DNA from: a virus | Direction: 5' to 3' (one strand) | Length of the DNA: 27,857 nucleotides | Virus record (IMG/VR): IMGVR_UViG_3300032087_002279 | Span: 1-27,857 of that record | Part shown: positions 3,081 through 23,601 of the stretch, piece after piece | How positions within the stretch are numbered: position 1 is the first letter of the stretch | Layout: every line of letters starts with the position of its first letter | Notes under the pieces: model-generated | Seen by the model: the letters and a program-made list of their open reading frames with translations, nothing else | Told to the model about the DNA's origin: nothing | The model's database searches: none | Position numbers and translations under genes: made by a program

Positions 3081-6000
3081 TACTTATTGCTTCCTGTAAA
3101 TCCTGCATTATATATCATAGCAGGATTTTCTTTAAGTTTTGTAGTATAATCGCTAGTGGTTTGGTCTGTACCAGATTTGTACGCTTCACTAATTAAAAAC
3201 AATAAACCTTTAGTTAAACCCCATCCTGGTGAATATTTAGATATTTTTTCTTGGTCTAATTCTTTCATAAATTGACTACCAAAATCAAACTCCTCTAATT
3301 GTTTTTTACCTGGTGGTGTTTGAAAATAATCATATGCAGACATACCTAATACTTTAACTGGTTTTCCTGTAGCATCTAACTCTGGTTGTCGTAATTGGTT
3401 ATATACAGCACCACCTTCTCTGTATTTGTAAGCAGATGAATCTGCATATAACGCTGCTTGTGCAACATCAGCTAATGCTACTCCTATTTCGTAAGCTATG
3501 TATGTTGGTAATATGTTACCAAACTTTAATCTAGCAAATCCTAGTTTAGATGCTGCATCATCCAAATATGGCACTGCTTTCTCTATAGCTTTTTCTATAG
3601 CAACATCTCCTGGTGCTAATACAGGTGCTATTTTACCTAATCCTGCTAATGCAGTTCCACCTAGCACACCAAATCTTGCAATAGTTTTAGCTAATGTATT
3701 GTACAGCTTTGGATTTTTAGCTACTGTTTCTTGTGCTAGTTGTGCAGCTAGTTTGCTATCTGTACCACCTTGTTGCATTTTATTTTGTACAGCAGCTTTT
3801 ACTTCTTTTTCTGTTGGTGCTGTAGAGAACCTGTGATTAGTTAATGATACTTCTAAATTGTTTATCTCTGGTACAAATTGATTTACTACATCACTATCAG
3901 ATGCTATATATCCTTTAAAGTTTCCTGCATCCCAGTATTGCTGTACATTAGCAAAATTCTCACCTAATATTTTTTCTATCTCTTGTACAGAAACTTGGTT
4001 AGCTTCCATATCTAGTAATACATTAAATTTTTTATCTTGTAATTGTTCTGGTGTATAGTATTTAGATTTAAAAGTATTTTTTAATTCTTCATTAGCTTTA
4101 TATATTGCATCATTGTTAGCAAATTTTTCTTCTATAATTATGATTCCATTTTCATTTAACAAGTTTTCTTTTATAAATTTAATTTGTTCTGCTCTATTTT
4201 TATCCATAAATTGAAATGCCATAGACTCATGTACTACATCATATTTATCTAATTCATTAAATACTGCAAATCTTACAGGTTGTATTCCTTTAGCATCAAA
4301 TATTTTATCCTGGTCATCTAATACATAACTAAATGCTTCATTTCTAAATATTGCATTAGTAACTAACTCACCTTCTTCAAATACATCTCTAGCTTTTTGT
4401 AATGGGTCTAACACTTCTACATACAAGTTTGGATTATTCTTTGCTAATGCTTTTGCCCATGTTCCTTCTGTTCCTCCTATATCTAATACTTGGTATCTTC
4501 CTTTTAATAAATTGTCAGGCATAGGTTGTTTGTCAAGTAAATTAGATAATGCTAAACCTTTTATTATTTGTGTTTCATAAAATGTAGGTATTGATGTAAA
4601 AATGTGTTGATTAAAGTTACCACCTTCTTTAACTAATTTGTTATAGTCATCTTGCCACTTATAAATATCTGGATTGTTTAAATCTATAATTTGTTCATAA
4701 GCTGATTTTGGTCTATACCTTTCATCAATGCCTTTTATAACATCATCAAAAAACTCTTGTGATGCTTGACCTGCATCAGCTAAAGGTTTAGTAATGTTAT
4801 CTATTTCAAATCCATTTTTAGGTAAATCTGATACATTTATTCTGTCAACATCATCTTGTATCAATACCTGCTCTAGCTTTGCACCAGGTTTGTTTGCTGC
4901 TTCTGCAAGTACAATTATTTCTTGCTCATTACCAAATGACAATCCTAAAGCATCTAAATCTATCATGTTGTTTTTGTGTATTAAATAAGTTTCTACAGTA
5001 TCACCTGCACTATATAATTGATTCATTTGATAAGATATAGCTTGTGCTGATGATGGATTTTTAGACATTGATTGCCATGGGTAAAATCTATTTAATTTAC
5101 CACCACGCCATAACACGAAATAGTCATTAGGGTTATTTTTATATATCTCATTATGTGCATCTATTATTACATTTCTCATGCGTTCTTTTAAGTTAGTGAA
5201 TTGACCTTGTTCAGTTACTAACTCAACTAATACTTTATTTATTTCTGGTCCTAGTTCAGAGTTACGAGATTGTAGTCTGTCTAAAAAAAATGCTTCATCT
5301 CTAAATACACCCATAGGTATAACTTCTGTAATTGGCTTATCACTAAAAATACCAATCTTAACAATATCTGATAGTGCATCTGCTTGAAAATATGGTTTAT
5401 GTGCGTATGCAGTTGATGGACTGTGACTAGCTAAATATATAAAAAACTTTGTTATATCTTCATCAGATGCTCTGTTTTTTAATATTCTTTCGTATAATTC
5501 TTTAGCATCAAAATTTGTAGTTCTATTCCAAATATATTCTTCACCTTCTACTGATAATGTAGTTAAAGAATCTGGATTAAATACTTTATTAGGTTTAATT
5601 ACATCATCTGCCCATTCATCTATTTCACCTAAACCATAATTAAATCTTGTTTCTAGTAATGGTGCATCATCTACTACATTTGTAGGTGTGTCTGCAAATT
5701 GTTGTGTTAATAATTTTTTAAATTCTGGGTCTTGTGCTTGTAAATCTGTTACACCTAATTCTGGTATTGTTAAACCATTAATTTTTCCTGTTCCTTGTGT
5801 TCTTTGTTCATATTGTGCTGCTTCAACAAACATCAATATTTCATCTGCTGCTTTTGCCTTGCTCATACCTTCTGGTAAATCGGTTCTATCTAAAGTTTCT
5901 TGATATACCTCTATAAAATCTACATGATTAGCTACAGACAATTTTTCTTCATTTATATATTGTTGTGTTAATGGTGTTATTTCTGTTTCATCCATTTCAA

Positions 6001-6467: not shown

Positions 6468-7454
6468 TTATGGCTCTAGTAAGTCTAAGACCTCTTCAAT
6501 ATTTACTGGTCTGCCTGATGGGAATTGTATTTGTTCATCTACTTTTCTAGCTTTAAATGTAGATGGGTCAGGTTTTTTAAAACTTGTAACAGTATCAAAA
6601 TATTTTAAAAATGTTTCTTTTTTTGTTGGTTTATAATCGCCATTTATTTGTACACGACTTGGAAGATTACCTCTAGCTATATCTGTTTTTATCATAGCTT
6701 CATCAAATGGCACTTCTTTTGCTACTGCAGGACCTACTTGACTTTCATATTGTTGTTGTTCTCCTGGTGTAGCTTCTAACACCCTTTCCTCTTCCACATC
6801 ATCTGTTGGAGGAACTGTAGTGGTAGTAGTAGTTGGAGGAACTGTTGTAGTTGTAGTAGTTGTTGGTCCAGATTCATAATATGAGTTTACATCATTATCA
6901 ATAACATCTCTAAACTTTTGTGCTTCTGCTGCATCTTTTTCACTAAATTTTGTAAAGTCAGTATTGTTAACATCAAATTTCTTAGGTGTAAGTTCATACA
7001 ATTTTGGTAATGCTGTTTCAAATGTATCATTAGTTTCTATTTCTTTTTGATGAAACATGTGCCTAACTAATTTTGCATGAAATTCTAAATCAGCATTTTT
7101 AATATAATCTATTGCATACTCTTCTTGTTCTGGTGTAAAATCTCTAACATCTTCTTCATCTTTTTGTTGTATAGATGTTTCCCATTGTCTTAACTGTTGT
7201 TCTGTAGCACCTGGTATTTCACCACCTGTTTCATTTATTGCCATCCATATAGCAGATTCCATAGTTTTAACATTTGCTTGTCCGAGTCCATATGATGGAG
7301 ATTCACTGTCTTTAGCAGATAGAACAAATGGTTTACCCCCTACTCTTGACTCATAACCAAGTATTGGTACAAGTATTTTTATTTGTTCTTCTGTAAAATC
7401 TTCTGCAGCTAACGCTTCTATAACATCTTGTGAACTATAATCTTTTTCTGCCAT
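6468..7454 (-). CDS. Lysozyme/transglycosylase-like virion protein with Thr-Pro linker
   Basis: A protein of 328 residues. The N-terminal domain has a candidate catalytic glutamate in ILGYESRVGG (Glu35), followed by SYGLGQANV (54-62). This matches the order Glu-Ser ... Ser-x-Gly-Leu-x-Gln of soluble lytic transglycosylases, which cleave peptidoglycan glycan strands. Residues 197-217 are two blocks of Thr followed by Val-Pro-Pro, a low-complexity linker typical of secreted actinobacterial proteins. It joins the enzyme to an uncharacterised C-terminus of about 110 residues. There is no signal peptide, so it is more likely carried in the virion, opening the wall during DNA entry, than secreted at lysis. 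Its start overlaps the stop of the 478-aa gene by one base. No substrate-binding domain was recognised. Confidence 0.65.
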   Translation of the reverse strand: MAEKDYSSQDVIEALAAEDFTEEQIKILVPILGYESRVGGKPFVLSAKDSESPSYGLGQANVKTMESAIWMAINETGGEIPGATEQQLRQWETSIQQKDEEDVRDFTPEQEEYAIDYIKNADLEFHAKLVRHMFHQKEIETNDTFETALPKLYELTPKKFDVNNTDFTKFSEKDAAEAQKFRDVIDNDVNSYYESGPTTTTTTTVPPTTTTTTVPPTDDVEEERVLEATPGEQQQYESQVGPAVAKEVPFDEAMIKTDIARGNLPSRVQINGDYKPTKKETFLKYFDTVTSFKKPDPSTFKARKVDEQIQFPSGRPVNIEEVLDLLEP

Positions 7455-17502: not shown

Positions 17503-19422
17503 TTATCTCCAATTATCTACATCCATACTACTAGGTTCGTACCCTGTAAAGCTAGGATTATAATCATATCCTAACTCTGCAAAGCGTTCCTTCTGCATTC
17601 TTCTTATGGCTCTCATTGGAAACCAACTAGCCATAACTATGTCAGTCTTTGTACCTACGCTTTTGCTTTTGTTCTTTGCAGAACTAAAATACACTAACTG
17701 ACTTGTATATAAGTTTACCTTCTCTTGTGCTTCAAAGCTAAGATATGGCAAAGAAATATTTTGTTCTTGAAACATAGGTCGCATAGCTGTAACTCCATAC
17801 ATAGGGTCAAACTTATTCTTGTATGTTTCGTGTCCTTCTAAAAATATACCATGTCGTGATGCAAAATCTCTAATTGATTTATCTTGTCGTATAGCTTTTT
17901 GAAAACCATTTTCTTCTATTACCCAGTGTGATAAATTATATTGTCCATACCAATCTTTAATTATTTCTAATGCTTGTGGTATGCCTCCACCTAAATTGTT
18001 ATTCATATTTACCATATGTAATTTATTTGTAACAGCATCATACGCCCACAAAAATGCAGCTTGATAACCTGTAGATGCAGGGTCTAGTCCTGCTATTAAT
18101 CTTGTGCCTTGTGGTATGTGTCCTATATCTCTTTTCTGGTCACGACACTCTTCTATCTCTACTCTGTCAAACAAAGCAAGTCCATCTGGCATGGCAACAT
18201 TAAGATATACCATTTCGTATATAGCTCTACCACCTGTAGTTTCTGCTGCTCTCTTCCTGTCCATTAACCATTTGTATGTACGCTTACCACGCCATAGCAT
18301 ACAATCTAAATGTTCTTCTTCATTCCAGTCTGGTAATGTACAAGCTGTATCATGTGCTTCTTCTACAATAGTTTTCCAAGATTGATTTTCTAAAAGATGT
18401 GAATACAAATCATCATAATGTTGTCTTGAACCAATAACTACCATAGCAGTATGTTCCTCTTTACGACTTGATAATGTTGTTGTCCACCAACTTCTTGTGT
18501 TTTCTCTTGATGCAGGTTGCATTGTAGATGTGTGGTCTTCAATGTCATCAGCAATAATTATGTCGCAGTCACGAGATAATATCTTACCGCCACGACCAAT
18601 GCCTACCATTGTAGGTGACTTAATACCTGTTACAGTTCTAGTACCTACAGTAAAACCATTTTGTGACCAAGACTTACCTGTTCTTGTGTTAGGTTTAAAT
18701 TTTGGTCCAGGTCCACATATCTCTTCTATTAATAATTCATTACTTTCTAACTGGTCAAGTACAGAACCTATAGCGTTCTTTGCAATCTCTTCGTTACCAC
18801 CTACCCATAAAATACGAATGTTAGGACTTGTACAAATCATCCACACACAAAAATGTATTAACAAATCTGTTTTACCATGTCGTGGTGGTGATAATATCAT
18901 TTGTTGTTCACCATGTTCTATAGCTTCTAATATGGAGTTAATCCATTTTATGTGAAACTCTGGCGTTTCGTATGGCTCACCTTTTTCTGTTTGAAAATAT
19001 CTATCTCTAAAATCTCTAAAGTCTTGTAATGATTTTTCTGCTACTTGTGGTATTGCCCAGTTGTCTTGTGCTAATTCATTTTCTTTATCTTCTATGTATG
19101 CGTTGTATGCCATAGATACTGCAGCAACAGAGGTATTTAATATTTTTGCTACATCAGCTAATGTGTTTTTACCTTTTAATATTTCTTCTGCTAATCCTGA
19201 ATCAACAATATCGCTATATACTTGACCACGCCTTGATTGTAAATTTTTCTTTTGACTAGGTATAACTAAAGTGTCATCTTCTTGTGTCCACTCTATGCCT
19301 TTTTTCTTTGCCCTTTTTTTCTGCATAGTAATTCTGTTATAACATCTATCACTACAATATTTAGTTCTACCTTTAGGCAAAGGTCTGTGACATCCTCCTG
19401 CGTAACAAAATTTATTTGCCAT
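17503..19422 (-). CDS. terL: Terminase large subunit with N-terminal zinc knuckle and HTH
   Basis: A protein of 639 residues, the DNA-packaging motor ATPase and nuclease. Residues 1-30 contain Cys6, Cys11, Cys23 and Cys27 (ending CSDRC), a zinc-binding arrangement. Residues 86-110 (NTLADVAKILNTSVAAVSMA) read as a helix-turn-helix. The ATPase follows: Walker A SPPRHGKTD (178-186), Walker B CDIIIADDIED (286-296), and GSRQHYDDLY (331-340) as a likely coupling region. The RNase H-like nuclease shows acidic residues in AGLDPAST (Asp447), VIEENGF (Glu503/504) and TKTDIVMASW (Asp594). No separate small-terminase gene is visible upstream, so the N-terminal HTH may do part of DNA recognition; this is inference. 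The start lies inside the end of a 31-codon micro-gene, with AGGAAT just before ATG. Confidence 0.93.
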   Translation of the reverse strand: MANKFCYAGGCHRPLPKGRTKYCSDRCYNRITMQKKRAKKKGIEWTQEDDTLVIPSQKKNLQSRRGQVYSDIVDSGLAEEILKGKNTLADVAKILNTSVAAVSMAYNAYIEDKENELAQDNWAIPQVAEKSLQDFRDFRDRYFQTEKGEPYETPEFHIKWINSILEAIEHGEQQMILSPPRHGKTDLLIHFCVWMICTSPNIRILWVGGNEEIAKNAIGSVLDQLESNELLIEEICGPGPKFKPNTRTGKSWSQNGFTVGTRTVTGIKSPTMVGIGRGGKILSRDCDIIIADDIEDHTSTMQPASRENTRSWWTTTLSSRKEEHTAMVVIGSRQHYDDLYSHLLENQSWKTIVEEAHDTACTLPDWNEEEHLDCMLWRGKRTYKWLMDRKRAAETTGGRAIYEMVYLNVAMPDGLALFDRVEIEECRDQKRDIGHIPQGTRLIAGLDPASTGYQAAFLWAYDAVTNKLHMVNMNNNLGGGIPQALEIIKDWYGQYNLSHWVIEENGFQKAIRQDKSIRDFASRHGIFLEGHETYKNKFDPMYGVTAMRPMFQEQNISLPYLSFEAQEKVNLYTSQLVYFSSAKNKSKSVGTKTDIVMASWFPMRAIRRMQKERFAELGYDYNPSFTGYEPSSMDVDNWR

Positions 19423-20107: not shown

Positions 20108-20220
20108 GGTCCTCGCACCTACGCTACTCTATGAAAGAAAAAGAAACAAACTTAATCAAACACACAATCACAAATGTCATATGATGAAAAGCCTTTTCTT
20201 TTCTCTAGGTATCTCTACCT

Positions 20221-20250
20221 AAGCACAAGACTTTCTTGTGCTTATTTCAT
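20221..20250 (+). terminator. Hairpin, possible terminator
   Basis: AAGCACAAGA (20221-20230), a 3-nt loop, and TCTTGTGCTT (20234-20243) form a perfect 10-bp stem followed by ATTTCATT. The U-run is poor, so termination on the plus strand is uncertain. A second small hairpin, TAGGTA-TCTC-TACCTA (20206-20221), abuts it. Confidence 0.4.
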
Positions 20251-20276
20251 TATAGCTACCCCCCCAATAAGTGTGT

Positions 20277-20292
20277 AAAAAAAATTTTTTTT
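20277..20292. repeat. A8T8 tract
   Basis: Eight A followed directly by eight T, a perfect 16-bp palindrome; A-tracts of this kind bend DNA. A run of seven C lies about 15 nt to its left (20258-20264). It sits in the control region just upstream of the structured leader and could be an UP-like element or origin-associated bend. Not further resolved. Confidence 0.6.
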
Positions 20293-20300
20293 GTAATTAA

Positions 20301-20374
20301 GGGTTGGTTCTAATACGACAACCCTCTATTGCTAGAGGGCTATACTGTCGTATCAATCAGAAAGGAGGGCTATT
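20301..20374 (+). promoter_or_regulatory. Leader with mutually exclusive hairpins before a 25-codon ORF
   Basis: Three pairings share the same bases. GGGTTG (20301-20306) can pair with CAACCC (20319-20324). ATACGACA (20313-20320) can pair with TGTCGTAT (20346-20353), enclosing CCCTCTA/TAGAGGG (322-328 with 333-339). CCCTC can instead pair with GAGGG of the ribosome site (20365-20369). The nine bases GAGGGCTAT occur twice (20335-20343 and 20365-20373), so one arm could hold either the hairpin or the Shine-Dalgarno. This looks like a translational switch; no known riboswitch was recognised. Confidence 0.45.
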
Positions 20375-20452
20375 ATGAATAAAGAATCACTCATGAAACC
20401 CAATAACATAATATCACAATATTGTTATTTTGTGAAACTTGTAAATAAATAA
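20375..20452 (+). CDS. 25-aa peptide with very strong ribosome site
   Basis: AAAGGAGG lies 6 nt before an ATG opening 25 codons: MNKESLMKPNNIISQYCYFV, then KLVNK. It is the best Shine-Dalgarno in the window. The peptide has a hydrophobic C-terminal half but no clear membrane segment. An AT-rich hairpin (AATAACA with TGTTATT, about 20402-20429) lies inside it. It stands alone in the control region behind the alternative-pairing leader, so it may be a regulatory or leader peptide. No clear promoter was found for it; function unknown. Confidence 0.4.
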   Translation: MNKESLMKPNNIISQYCYFVKLVNK

Positions 20453-21005
20453 TTAATGTGATACAGTTAACAAACAATCAGAGGATTCTTCCTGCTTTTA
20501 GAAAAGGATTCTTGATAAAACTTCATACAAAGTGGACTAGCAGGACCATTCTAACTAGGGTCAAAGCCTATTACTTCATAATATTTAAATAAGTCATAAA
20601 CAGATTTGTTATCGGTTGGGAGGGATGACACAGGGTTAGCTGTATTCTCTATGTTTACTTTACTTGACTACAACAGACTTAAAGATATTACTTATTTTAT
20701 TGTTTTAGGTACACCACAATATGTAGTACCACTAGATATAGTACCTAGTTAACAGCATATTTTTAGAGGGTATACATATAAATAAAGCCGCCCGCACATT
20801 TAACCCCCCTATGTGAAAGCCCACAACAAACCTGCCTGTGCGACAGATAGAGATAACGCATAATAGTAGACATACAACATATAGTGTATACATTATGTAG
20901 TAGTACTAGATGTAGTGTACCCATTTTGATTAAATACTAGGGATAGTTAGTTAACTTACATCATTGAAGGATATGCAACAATAAAACTGTGAAGGATTAC
21001 CAACA
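20453..21005. other. Non-coding control region with diverged direct repeats
   Basis: No ORF on either strand looks like a gene here. A diverged direct repeat of about 27 bp starts TATGTAGTA and continues ACTAGAT-R-TAGT; copies are at 20720-20745 and 20894-20922. The first copy lies within an inverted repeat TAGGTAC (20706-20712) / GTACCTA (20741-20747). Short repeats of AGGATTCTT occur at about 20482 and 20507. The region is a candidate replication origin or operator cluster, but the repeats are too few and too diverged to claim iterons. No tRNA fold was found. Confidence 0.45.
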
Positions 21006-21042
21006 ACAAAAAGAAAAGCACCTGCGATTAAACAAGTGCTTT
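21006..21042 (-). terminator. Intrinsic terminator of the 73-aa gene
   Basis: On the minus strand, AAAGCACTTG and CAGGTGCTTT (21015-21042) form a 10-bp stem with one G-U pair and an 8-nt loop, followed by TCTTTTTG. It lies about 20 nt after the stop of the minus-strand gene at 21065-21286. A good Rho-independent terminator, isolating this gene from the late operon. Confidence 0.75.
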
Positions 21043-21064
21043 CCTTCATTGGTTAGTTAGATGA

Positions 21065-21286
21065 TTACATATTAGTGTTATCATTTACAATTATTTTACA
21101 ATCGTAAATATTAAAATTATTAATAAATATTTCATTATCAATACTTTCTTTAAATAGTTTTAAAGCATCTTTTTTTGTATAATCCATATATTTTTTATTA
21201 AAATATAAATTACCTATAAAAGAACTTAAAACATAATATCCATAAATATTTTTATTAATATCTATCTCTATTGTTTCATTAGCCAT
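21065..21286 (-). CDS. Small early protein, 73 aa
   Basis: Begins MANETIEIDINKNIYGYYVL, with GAAAGG about 11 nt upstream. The pattern GYYVLSSFIGNLYFNKKYMD, then YTKKDALKLFKESI, resembles small uncharacterised phage proteins with a G-Y-x-V strand, a Lys-rich loop and a YTKKEA-LF helix; no function is known to me. It has its own well-formed promoter (divergent from the early operon) and its own terminator, so it is a monocistronic unit. That position is where a transcriptional regulator often lies, but no DNA-binding motif is visible. It is richer in A+T than its neighbours. Confidence 0.65.
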   Translation of the reverse strand: MANETIEIDINKNIYGYYVLSSFIGNLYFNKKYMDYTKKDALKLFKESIDNEIFINNFNIYDCKIIVNDNTNM

Positions 21287-21983: not shown

Positions 21984-22116
21984 ATTATCCTTTTGGTTAT
22001 CTATTCCAATTTATTTAGTTGGTGCATTAACTATTAGTAATTGGTTAGCAAGTAAAGTAAATCTTTATTACAGGATTTACCAAGAAAAAAAAATTAGAGA
22101 AAAAGACAACATATAA
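21970..22116 (+). CDS. Small single-pass membrane protein, 48 aa
   Basis: Overlaps the end of the 87-aa gene by 14 nt. The peptide MSKIELSFWLSIPIYLVGAL continues TISNWLASK and then a basic tail (YYRIYQEKKIREKDNI). Residues about 7-27 form one membrane segment with a positively charged cytoplasmic tail. Only a weak purine-rich ribosome site precedes it, but the start lies inside a translated gene, so coupling is likely. Small early membrane proteins of phages can serve exclusion or host takeover; nothing here identifies which. Confidence 0.55.
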   Translation: MSKIELSFWLSIPIYLVGALTISNWLASKVNLYYRIYQEKKIREKDNI

Positions 22117-22154
22117 TTACAGATATGATAATGTTAAATGAGAAAGGAACAATA

Positions 22155-22211
22155 ATGGTTGGTGGTTCATTACCACCTAGACACGAAACAACTACTTGCA
22201 GACCACGTTAA
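22155..22211 (+). CDS. 18-aa peptide ahead of the structured RNA
   Basis: AGAAAGGA lies 6 nt before an ATG opening 18 codons: MVGGSLPPRHETTTCRPR. The ribosome site matches those of the neighbouring real genes. The peptide is Pro/Arg-rich with one Cys. It ends 11 nt before the first arm of the structured RNA region, so ribosomes on it could affect RNA folding. It could be a leader peptide, a tiny functional peptide or noise. Confidence 0.4.
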   Translation: MVGGSLPPRHETTTCRPR

Positions 22212-22221
22212 TTGTTTCTTT

Positions 22222-22758
22222 CAAGCTATCTATGTTCCACAAATGGAATGAAAGCAAATGGTTGGATAAGTAGGTAGCTTGTAGCACATAGGAAACTAAC
22301 AGTTCATTAACTATAGGTTAAAAGCCTAGATTAATGTAGGTTGTAACTTCCTTGAAATAAAGAGAATAAAACTCTGTCTGTGTGTTACGAGCTATCTATG
22401 TAAAACGAGTGAGTAAAGAAAGAGAAATTCACGCAAGTGATGTTCCTGCTAGAAAACTCGTAGTAGGTAGCTTGTAAGTTTAAGTCAGGAACGCTTAGGC
22501 GGAAAAGTGATATAAACAAAGTTAATAACTAATTCCTGTTTCACTCGCTTACAGTAGGTAGCTTGTAGCACATAAGATAGAACTACGAGTACTTCCTGCT
22601 TAGTTGCAACTAAGTAGATAGGTATGCCGAGTACAAAGTATCTCAGACTTGTGTGTTACAAGCTATCTATAAGTAGGTAGCAAGAAAGTATCTAGTGAGT
22701 AGGATTTCATTTTCCAAGCCCTGTTTAGTGATTCACCGAAAGCTAGATACTTTTTTTT
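22222..22758 (+). ncRNA. Structured non-coding RNA with duplicated long-range helices
   Basis: About 540 nt without a gene between small early ORFs and the SGNH-like gene. Two arms recur. Arm A (TAGGTAGCTTGTAGCACATA) is at 22271-22292 and 22555-22576, with shorter copies at 22464-22477 and 22674-22684. Arm B (GTGTGTTAC-R-AGCTATCTA) is at 22378-22398 and 22648-22669, with a short copy at 22222-22234. A pairs with the next B over about 21 bp in both units, all differences being G-U wobbles. Further pairings: CGAGTGA (22406-22412) with TCACTCG (22541-22547), GTTCCTG with CAGGAAC near 22442 and 22486, and a TCAC-GCAA-GTGA hairpin near 22429. The stretch ends in an intrinsic terminator. Size, ornate pairing and phage setting recall large phage RNAs such as ROOL and GOLLD, but no match was established. 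A repeat-rich origin or leader of the downstream gene is the alternative. Confidence 0.6.
22685..22758 (+). terminator. Intrinsic terminator closing the structured RNA
   Basis: AAAGTATCTAG (22685-22695) pairs perfectly with CTAGATACTTT (22743-22753), an 11-bp stem continuing into an eight-T run. The 47 nt inside hold a possible GTGA-TT-CAC hairpin. A good Rho-independent terminator on the plus strand; the long internal part could allow regulated read-through. Confidence 0.7.
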
Positions 22759-22787
22759 GTACACATATATTAACAATATGCTACAAT
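22758..22787 (+). promoter_or_regulatory. Promoter candidate for the SGNH-like gene
   Basis: TGTACA (22758-22763), 18-nt spacer, then TACAAT (22782-22787) with TG one base upstream (extended -10). It starts at the end of the terminator T-run. The expected start is about 22794, with a short leader carrying AGAAAGGA. The last 17 nt through the ATG (22796-22812) are identical to the leader of the first early gene (21399-21415). Confidence 0.6.
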
Positions 22788-22809
22788 ACATATTGACAGA
22801 AAGGAAACT

Positions 22810-23601
22810 ATGCAAGACAACGATTGGTATATTGACCAAAGTAATTTTGACTTGACCAACGAGGACATCATTATACGTGATGAGAAGTTAGAGTTTGGTA
22901 AGCCAATAACATCAAAGAGTTATACAAATACCTCTTTCTTTGGTATCAATAGAACAGTTAACGAGAACGCTATCTGCACATTGATAGGCGATAGTGTGAT
23001 TGACAACTCTGCATATACAGGAACAGGCAAAGGCACAGTAGATTATCTAAGAGCTAAGTCAAGAGTTAGCCAAGATATTTATAACGACCAAGCTGTTGAT
23101 GGATATGTAGTAAGCGATTGTATCAGTTCAGCAAATAAAGTTCGTGGTGATTACGTTGTAATTAGTGCAGGTGGTAATGACTTGTTAGCAAAACTGCAAC
23201 TATTAAAAAGCAACAAAGACAGCAACGAAATTATGGGCATTATGAACCAAGAGTTAGACAAGTTATCTAGTGCATACGAAACATTACTTAGCGAACTATC
23301 ACAAAAAGGTAGAACGTTTGTGTTTCTTACATGTTACACAGGTAATCTAGCTTTCAATCCAACACGTTTCAACAACGTAGATAACATAGCTTTGTCTATC
23401 GTATCTATGTGGAACGACAGATTGTACAGCTTAGCTAACAAATACAATCGTAGAAATAACAATCAAACTTATGATGTCATAGACACAAGAAACTTCATGA
23501 CAGTAGATTGTTATTACAACGAGATAGAACCAAACGAGAAAGGTTCTAAACGTATAGCAAACAACATACATAAGTATCTACAAGAGAAAGGTGTATTCTA
23601 A
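22810..23601 (+). CDS. SGNH/GDSL-like hydrolase with altered catalytic Asp-His block
   Basis: A protein of 263 residues; strong AGAAAGGA ribosome site. SGNH block I is ICTLIGDSVIDNSAY (55-69, Ser62 as nucleophile); block III is VVISAGGNDLL (116-126, Asn123); block V reads YNEIEPNEKGSKRIANNI. In family members block V is D-x-x-H-P-N-x-x-G; here the Asp position is Asn237 and the His position is Glu240, while Pro-Asn-Glu-Lys-Gly is kept. Such enzymes cleave esters on lipids, polysaccharides or proteins; this one may be inactive, use a different dyad, or act as a binding protein. No signal peptide, so cytoplasmic. It heads the second early transcription unit after the structured RNA and overlaps the next start by one base. 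The fold call is fairly sure; activity is open. Confidence 0.75.
   Translation: MQDNDWYIDQSNFDLTNEDIIIRDEKLEFGKPITSKSYTNTSFFGINRTVNENAICTLIGDSVIDNSAYTGTGKGTVDYLRAKSRVSQDIYNDQAVDGYVVSDCISSANKVRGDYVVISAGGNDLLAKLQLLKSNKDSNEIMGIMNQELDKLSSAYETLLSELSQKGRTFVFLTCYTGNLAFNPTRFNNVDNIALSIVSMWNDRLYSLANKYNRRNNNQTYDVIDTRNFMTVDCYYNEIEPNEKGSKRIANNIHKYLQEKGVF

Follow-up and report, generated by a model that had tools for sequence, protein, structure and literature searches.

The stretch of DNA analysed here, referred to as the window, covers positions 1-27,857 of the IMG/VR record IMGVR_UViG_3300032087_002279 and is a phage fragment of 27,857 bases. It encodes a large terminase subunit (terL, 17503-19422, minus strand), weakly similar to the terminases of Streptomyces phages, and a GDSL-lipase-like protein, upstream of which lies an array of RNA hairpins (Table 1). 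A protein with a low-complexity VPPTTTTTT repeat is encoded at 6468-7454 (minus strand), adjoining the structural genes. A second non-coding region of ~0.95 kb (20118-21065) is 72-100% conserved in relatives (designated by L numbers), among them L012, L018, L064, L073 and L077, which are without the array. This region folds better than its shuffles (z -4.0 on the minus and -2.1 on the plus strand), and a packaging site, an origin or another RNA are candidate readings of it.

Table 1. Features of the RNA array in the window and of the gene downstream.
Feature	Position	Strand	Remarks
Promoter-like site AAGACA-18-GATAAT	22103..22132	+	9/12 matches; tentative
5' domain, insert type P2	22142..22222	+	core 22156-22205; stem 22142-22153/22211-22222; covariation in alignment A2
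B0, orphan B half-arm AAGCUAUCUAU	22223..22233	+	directly 3' of the P2 stem
Hairpin 1, arm A1	22270..22290	+	proximal GUAGGUAGCUU 22270-22280; distal 22281-22290
Hairpin 1, insert of family 2	22291..22378	+	also in L048, L091, L173
Hairpin 1, arm B1	22379..22399	+	pairs with A1, 21 bp
Linker module closed by ACGAG...CUCGU	22400..22461	+	also in L096, L400
A half-arm without a B of its own	22463..22473	+	same linker precedes a complete hairpin in L096
Insert type P1, pseudoknot topology, on GUAAG/CUUAC stem	22474..22552	+	sequence match to the P1 superfamily
Hairpin 2, arm A2	22554..22574	+	pairs with B2, 21 bp
Hairpin 2, insert of family 16	22575..22649	+	also in L197; ends in common with family 1 of L006/L009/L191
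Hairpin 2, arm B2	22650..22670	+	pairs with A2, 21 bp
Truncated A half-arm GUAGGUAGC	22673..22681	+	L004 and L003 compared with the window
Terminator hairpin and T run	22685..22758	+	stem 22685-22695/22743-22753; T run 22751-22758
GDSL-lipase-like gene	22810-23601		Pfam PF00657/PF13472

The plus strand of 22130-22765 folds at -202.5 kcal/mol, compared with -144.8 +/- 4.5 for 20 dinucleotide shuffles (z -13.0), while the z of the minus strand is only -3.0, a difference expected from G-U pairing in a transcribed plus strand. The original prediction, made from the letters of the window, had proposed a structured phage RNA with two copies of a long-range helix, and this much is borne out. Arms A and B form two 21-bp hairpins in which all the non-Watson-Crick positions are G-U wobbles, the G/A difference between the two units in arm B still lies opposite U, the extra half-arms are real, and 3' of the arms there is a terminator hairpin that ends in a T run. 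The terminator is 97% identical in L003 and L004, and it was missed by a simple scan because of its large structured loop, the inner module of which reads GUAGGA...CCCUG...CACCGAAAG. By eye we also noticed a recurrent, kink-turn-like linker motif, GUARGAG-stem-...CCCUG...-stem-RACYGAAA with a variable stem, found at 8604-8653 of L192 (reverse strand) and at 22698-22738 of the window, inside the terminator hairpin.

The 5' limit of the RNA lies earlier than the predicted 22222, since an extra structured domain precedes it. The promoter-like site upstream of this domain is tentative, such sites being no more numerous than in shuffles; the sequence CATATAATTACA just inside it is kept in the relatives L003, L004 and L049. 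In the unconstrained fold of the window, the crossed partners (A1-B2 and B1-A2) reach -201.4 against -197.8 for the local hairpins, i.e. they are better by 3.6 kcal/mol. Despite this preference, the relatives with a single hairpin (L004, L006 and L043) show that the unit in evolution is the local A-insert-B hairpin.

The first loci compared, some around the downstream gene and some around the terminase, contain these arms in differing arrangements. In IMG/VR, 16 bases of arm A matched at least 120 stretches, and among the matches listed nearly all have a matching arm B downstream. We describe the phage family as mainly marine from the general character of the IMG/VR sources. In general, the unit consists of a constant proximal helix of 11 bp (GUAGGUAGCUU/AAGCUAUCUAU), followed by ~10 bp of distal helix, variable from unit to unit but with compensating changes, and then a folded insert of about 20-150 nt. 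An array has 1 to ~5 such units, and the linker domains are modular too. A fixed two-unit RNA of ~540 nt is not supported; the units vary in number, and inserts and linkers are shuffled between phages. A region of L163 considered for 2-kb non-coding RNAs holds several short genes on reading, and that candidate was dropped.

For the test of the stem we selected hairpins in IMG/VR by the two proximal 11-mers and the gap only, the distal positions playing no part, and added the hairpins with exact 11-mers from the loci fetched earlier by the 16-mer. A first covariation count had been set aside, as its elements had been picked for complementarity. Among the matches listed there are 156 distinct hairpins, 134 of which pair at 10/10 distal positions, 21 at 9/10 and one at 4/10; all our counts of hairpins and inserts are lower bounds of this kind, from an arbitrary sample. 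The 54 distinct arm pairs have a mean distal pairing of 9.56, compared with 7.05 when partners are exchanged at random (the highest of 1000 shuffles gave 7.61). Double changes occur at all 10 of the 10 distal pairs, with 109 double-change cells vs 28.1 +/- 4.3 after shuffling (0/500 shuffles reach this number), and the paired fraction falls from 97.9% to 20-47% when the partners are slid by 1-3 columns, the slide control being the sole correction for relatedness among the sequences in our covariation counts. Helix positions 1 and 5 keep their G-U wobbles, as positions 15 and 20 commonly do, even where the neighbouring letters vary; this speaks for RNA, and for the plus strand. These fixed positions perhaps also avoid perfect inverted repeats in the DNA.

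We call the inserts payloads. Grouped by BLAST thresholds, on which the families rest, the 167 non-identical hairpins among the matches listed fall into 98 insert families, 61 of them singletons, with a Chao1 estimate of ~187. There are fewer distinct folds than 98, because several insert families belong to common superfamilies. The strong covariation that the prediction had looked for in homologues is found in two payload types as well as in the stems. Type P2 occurs in at least 28 IMG/VR stretches. Its alignment A2 (18 distinct sequences) has 98.6% of cells paired, a figure that collapses in the slid controls, and shows double changes at 9 pairs, with 51 double-change cells vs 16.3 after shuffling; column 11, for example, covaries with column 60 as U-A, A-U or G-C. 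P2 has the pseudoknot topology of P1, but its crossing helix is invariant and so without covariation support of its own. An open reading frame of 18 amino acids (22156-22212) in the P2 domain was considered as a leader peptide and rejected: it is part of the RNA fold and not conserved as a reading frame, and most relatives retain the RNA pairing but have lost the ATG, which exists only with a U in column 11. Type P1 occurs in at least 30 IMG/VR stretches, and the window has a relative of it. The P1 alignment A3 gives 16 double-change cells vs 5.0, including one pair of the crossing (pseudoknot) helix; the alignment A1, in which distant P1 relatives were pooled, was poor and was left out of the counts. 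One further insert family looks tRNA-like by eye (L115 at 3228-3362, L130 and L177), with a T-arm-like hairpin of loop UUCAAAU or UUCGAAU and a six-pair hairpin with a seven-base loop; no program calls it a tRNA.

P2 is found on A/B stems of several distal types and on wholly other stems, and so is P1. The same insert can stand upstream of unrelated genes. L006 and L191 have an identical insert and next proteins that are 60.6% identical, and L009, whose next protein is 98.2% identical to that of L006, has an extra unit in common with L043 (60.5%). Judged from these comparisons, inserts have evidently been swapped horizontally between phages. The half-arms had been thought to let the arms exchange partners, and are better read as incomplete units. 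At the site of the window half-arm 22673-22681, L004 keeps the missing insert, a domain of ~100 nt (AAGACUAACC...GGUCUAACAAGA) between near-identical flanks, so that the half-arm reads as a deletion scar, and at least one of the extra half-arms in the window looks like what remains of a lost insert. The linker upstream of the half-arm at 22463 runs into a complete hairpin in L096. B0 follows the P2 stem as an arm B does in L108, and in the window it stands without a 5' partner; in a folding model its partner may be the half-arm 22673-22681, and this pairing would close the array as a whole.

In the 27 whole records (genomes of ~40 kb), the arms are concentrated at a single locus or, in some, at two neighbouring ones. 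The terminase is 52-60% identical to that of the window in 31 of 36 array-bearing records, and in most records the array is located 2.3-6.5 kb (once 9.7 kb) upstream (5') of terL and is oriented away from this gene. L108 (G002) and L122 (G030) carry arrays together with a terminase of another family (PF03237), and hence the array extends beyond the main clade. The close relatives L012, L018 and L029 have no recognisable array, which means that members of the clade can do without the RNA. Over a third of the distinct arrays (54/144) end 11-34 nt 5' of a start codon with an SD-like sequence, the others being 50-870 nt from the next start, and many begin within 100 nt of a stop codon. A run of seven Ts precedes the next start in 14 of the 144. 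By these distances and the few T runs, most arrays lie between the genes of operons and lack a terminator, and the form in the window with its own terminator is a minority. The downstream gene is on the same strand in 95 of 118 cases; it is a GDSL-type gene after 25 arrays, and the other arrays have many different neighbours.

We found no known family to which these RNAs belong. Neither the window nor the loci of 14 relatives (146 kb) match any Rfam 15 family at gathering thresholds, ROOL and GOLLD included, and at E values up to 10 the region 22100-22820 of the window has chance matches only and nothing credible. ARAGORN predicts 0 tRNAs in the window and 41 relatives' loci, and neither ARAGORN nor Rfam calls a tRNA or tmRNA in the window, the relatives' loci or the inserts. 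Queries of named phages with the DNA and the payloads returned chance matches or none, and no named phage was found to carry the array. Some host genomes match a 14-mer, with no A arm nearby, and we judged these matches to be chance. The stem-mounted design is found in no Rfam RNA family, and neither Rfam nor the open-access literature searched contains an RNA class with a constant mounting helix and an open repertoire of exchangeable domains. To our knowledge no RNA class combines such a helix with an open repertoire of independently folded exchangeable domains. Of the suggestion that the RNA is a new member or class of the large phage RNAs, the position outside known families thus stands and the kinship with ROOL and GOLLD does not.

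The RNAs are structured, covary in their stem and in two payload types, are exchanged and keep a conserved genomic position. We are somewhat more inclined than not to read them as modular non-coding RNAs, in which a constant stem holds swapped folded payloads and the whole is a carrier that would act in trans. Recombination within the short constant arms would be the simplest explanation of the exchange of payloads at one conserved site. With ~21 bp, or two turns of A-form helix, the stem has sufficient length for RNase III and could plausibly serve as its substrate, in which case single payloads could be cut from the operon transcript. The payloads might inhibit host factors that bind or cleave RNA, or act on them as decoys or sponges, and one payload family looks tRNA-like; the arrays would then be stem-mounted interchangeable RNA domains working in trans, perhaps as decoys released by RNase III. 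That a large and unsaturated repertoire is exchanged rapidly at one accessory site suggests that varying hosts exert selection, as in an arms race; phages are known to employ small RNAs in such a way from the RNA anti-CRISPRs (PMC10651486). The action in trans on the host we put forward only tentatively. The fuller proposal, an RNA cassette locus from which effector domains of a shared, open-ended repertoire (an estimated ~190 families in our sample alone) are released against host defence or RNA machinery, is possible but falls clearly short of probable.

The arrays could instead be cis-acting intercistronic elements that protect, process or insulate the operon mRNA, in the manner of the RNase III sites between the early genes of T7, and in which the insert matters little, a reading we consider unlikely though by no means negligible. 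It would suit the arrays just 5' of an SD-like sequence and start (54/144), a placement that would also fit processing or translation in cis and is a point against the trans reading, as well as the many arrays close to a stop codon, the same-strand downstream genes (95/118) and the terminator at the end of the window array. However, there is only about one locus per genome, the other arrays are 50-870 nt from the next start, and in the family of the window the gene is set apart from the array by a terminator and a promoter-like site. Structured, covarying inserts also recur almost unchanged before different genes, while an indifferent filler needs no such structure. Such variable distances and neighbours, and the conservation of structured payloads upstream of unrelated genes, are hard to reconcile with a role in cis only. 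An attenuator of the GDSL-lipase-like gene, with an alternative B0-A1-B1-terminator pairing that sets read-through, seems very improbable to us. The 3' half of the last B arm does form the 5' strand of the terminator stem in L006, L043 and L048, and GDSL-type genes follow 25 arrays; but in the window the terminator has a stem of its own and the gene a separate promoter-like site, most arrays are followed by genes of other kinds, and a run of seven Ts before the next start is confined to 14/144.

Since any A arm can pair with any B arm, the crossed fold is favoured and the fold is very stable, the shared arms might swap partners and build multimers or cages, as in ROOL and GOLLD, which are cage-forming phage RNAs (PMC12286853). 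We think such an architectural role improbable, as there is no Rfam match and no tRNA in the loci of 41 relatives, and as the arrays differ freely in their linkers, in the size of inserts (20-150 nt) and in how many units they have, a poor fit to a fixed symmetric assembly. It is also hardly to be expected that the element works as DNA, as iterons, MITE-like inverted repeats or attC sites, with an incidental RNA structure. Variable inserts that are bordered by inverted repeats and move between genomes do resemble cassettes, as does the domain that L004 has and the window lacks between near-identical flanks. Yet the wobbles at positions 1 and 5, and mostly at 15 and 20, have G or U on the strand that permits G-U pairing and are thus strand-specific, the distal arms compensate, the inserts covary internally, and the arms contain no integron core site.

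If the payloads act on the host, the arrays would be an RNA analogue of the accessory anti-defence islands of phages, and each payload family would be a candidate for a new RNA activity. If their role is in cis, they would still add a new type of modular element to those of mRNAs, one that more than 120 phage sequences contain. Single payloads of 40-150 nt are of a size that suits synthesis, probing and expression.

Among the known systems, integron cassettes with their attC sites share exchangeable units, inverted-repeat borders and a variable centre with the arrays. However, the array units are RNA domains of 60-190 nt without genes whose pairing uses G-U wobbles, and the only GTT in the common type of arm B, in GTTACAA, has C as fifth base and gives no GTTRRRY core. 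As regards MITEs and insertion elements, which have terminal inverted repeats with target duplications, inverted repeats are present in the array, with strand-specific G-U positions. A CRISPR array consists of identical direct repeats and unstructured spacers of constant length, whereas here the arms alternate between the mutually complementary A and B, and the inserts are folded and of ~20-150 nt. The RNase III sites in T7-like early operons are long imperfect hairpins between phage genes, many per genome; they resemble the arrays as intergenic phage hairpins and differ in having no exchangeable folded inserts. ToxI of type III toxin-antitoxin systems is likewise a pseudoknotted repeat RNA upstream of a gene, with a terminator between, but the array repeats are not identical units, and the gene downstream in the window is GDSL-like by Pfam and not a ToxN ribonuclease.

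GOLLD and ROOL are large ornate phage RNAs that form cages, GOLLD with a variable part (PMC12286853). The arrays are like them in being phage-encoded, several hundred nt long and very structured, but consist of exchangeable domains carried by a repeated stem, where GOLLD and ROOL have one conserved architecture, and have no covariance-model match. ROOL and GOLLD often lie near tRNA genes, whereas ARAGORN finds no tRNA near the array in the window and 41 loci. RNA anti-CRISPRs (Racrs) set a precedent as small RNAs of phages which, acting in trans, disable the immunity of the host through mimicry (PMC10651486). No payload here was matched to a CRISPR repeat, and while Racrs are solitary mimics of CRISPR repeats, the arrays carry many unrelated payloads on one type of stem.
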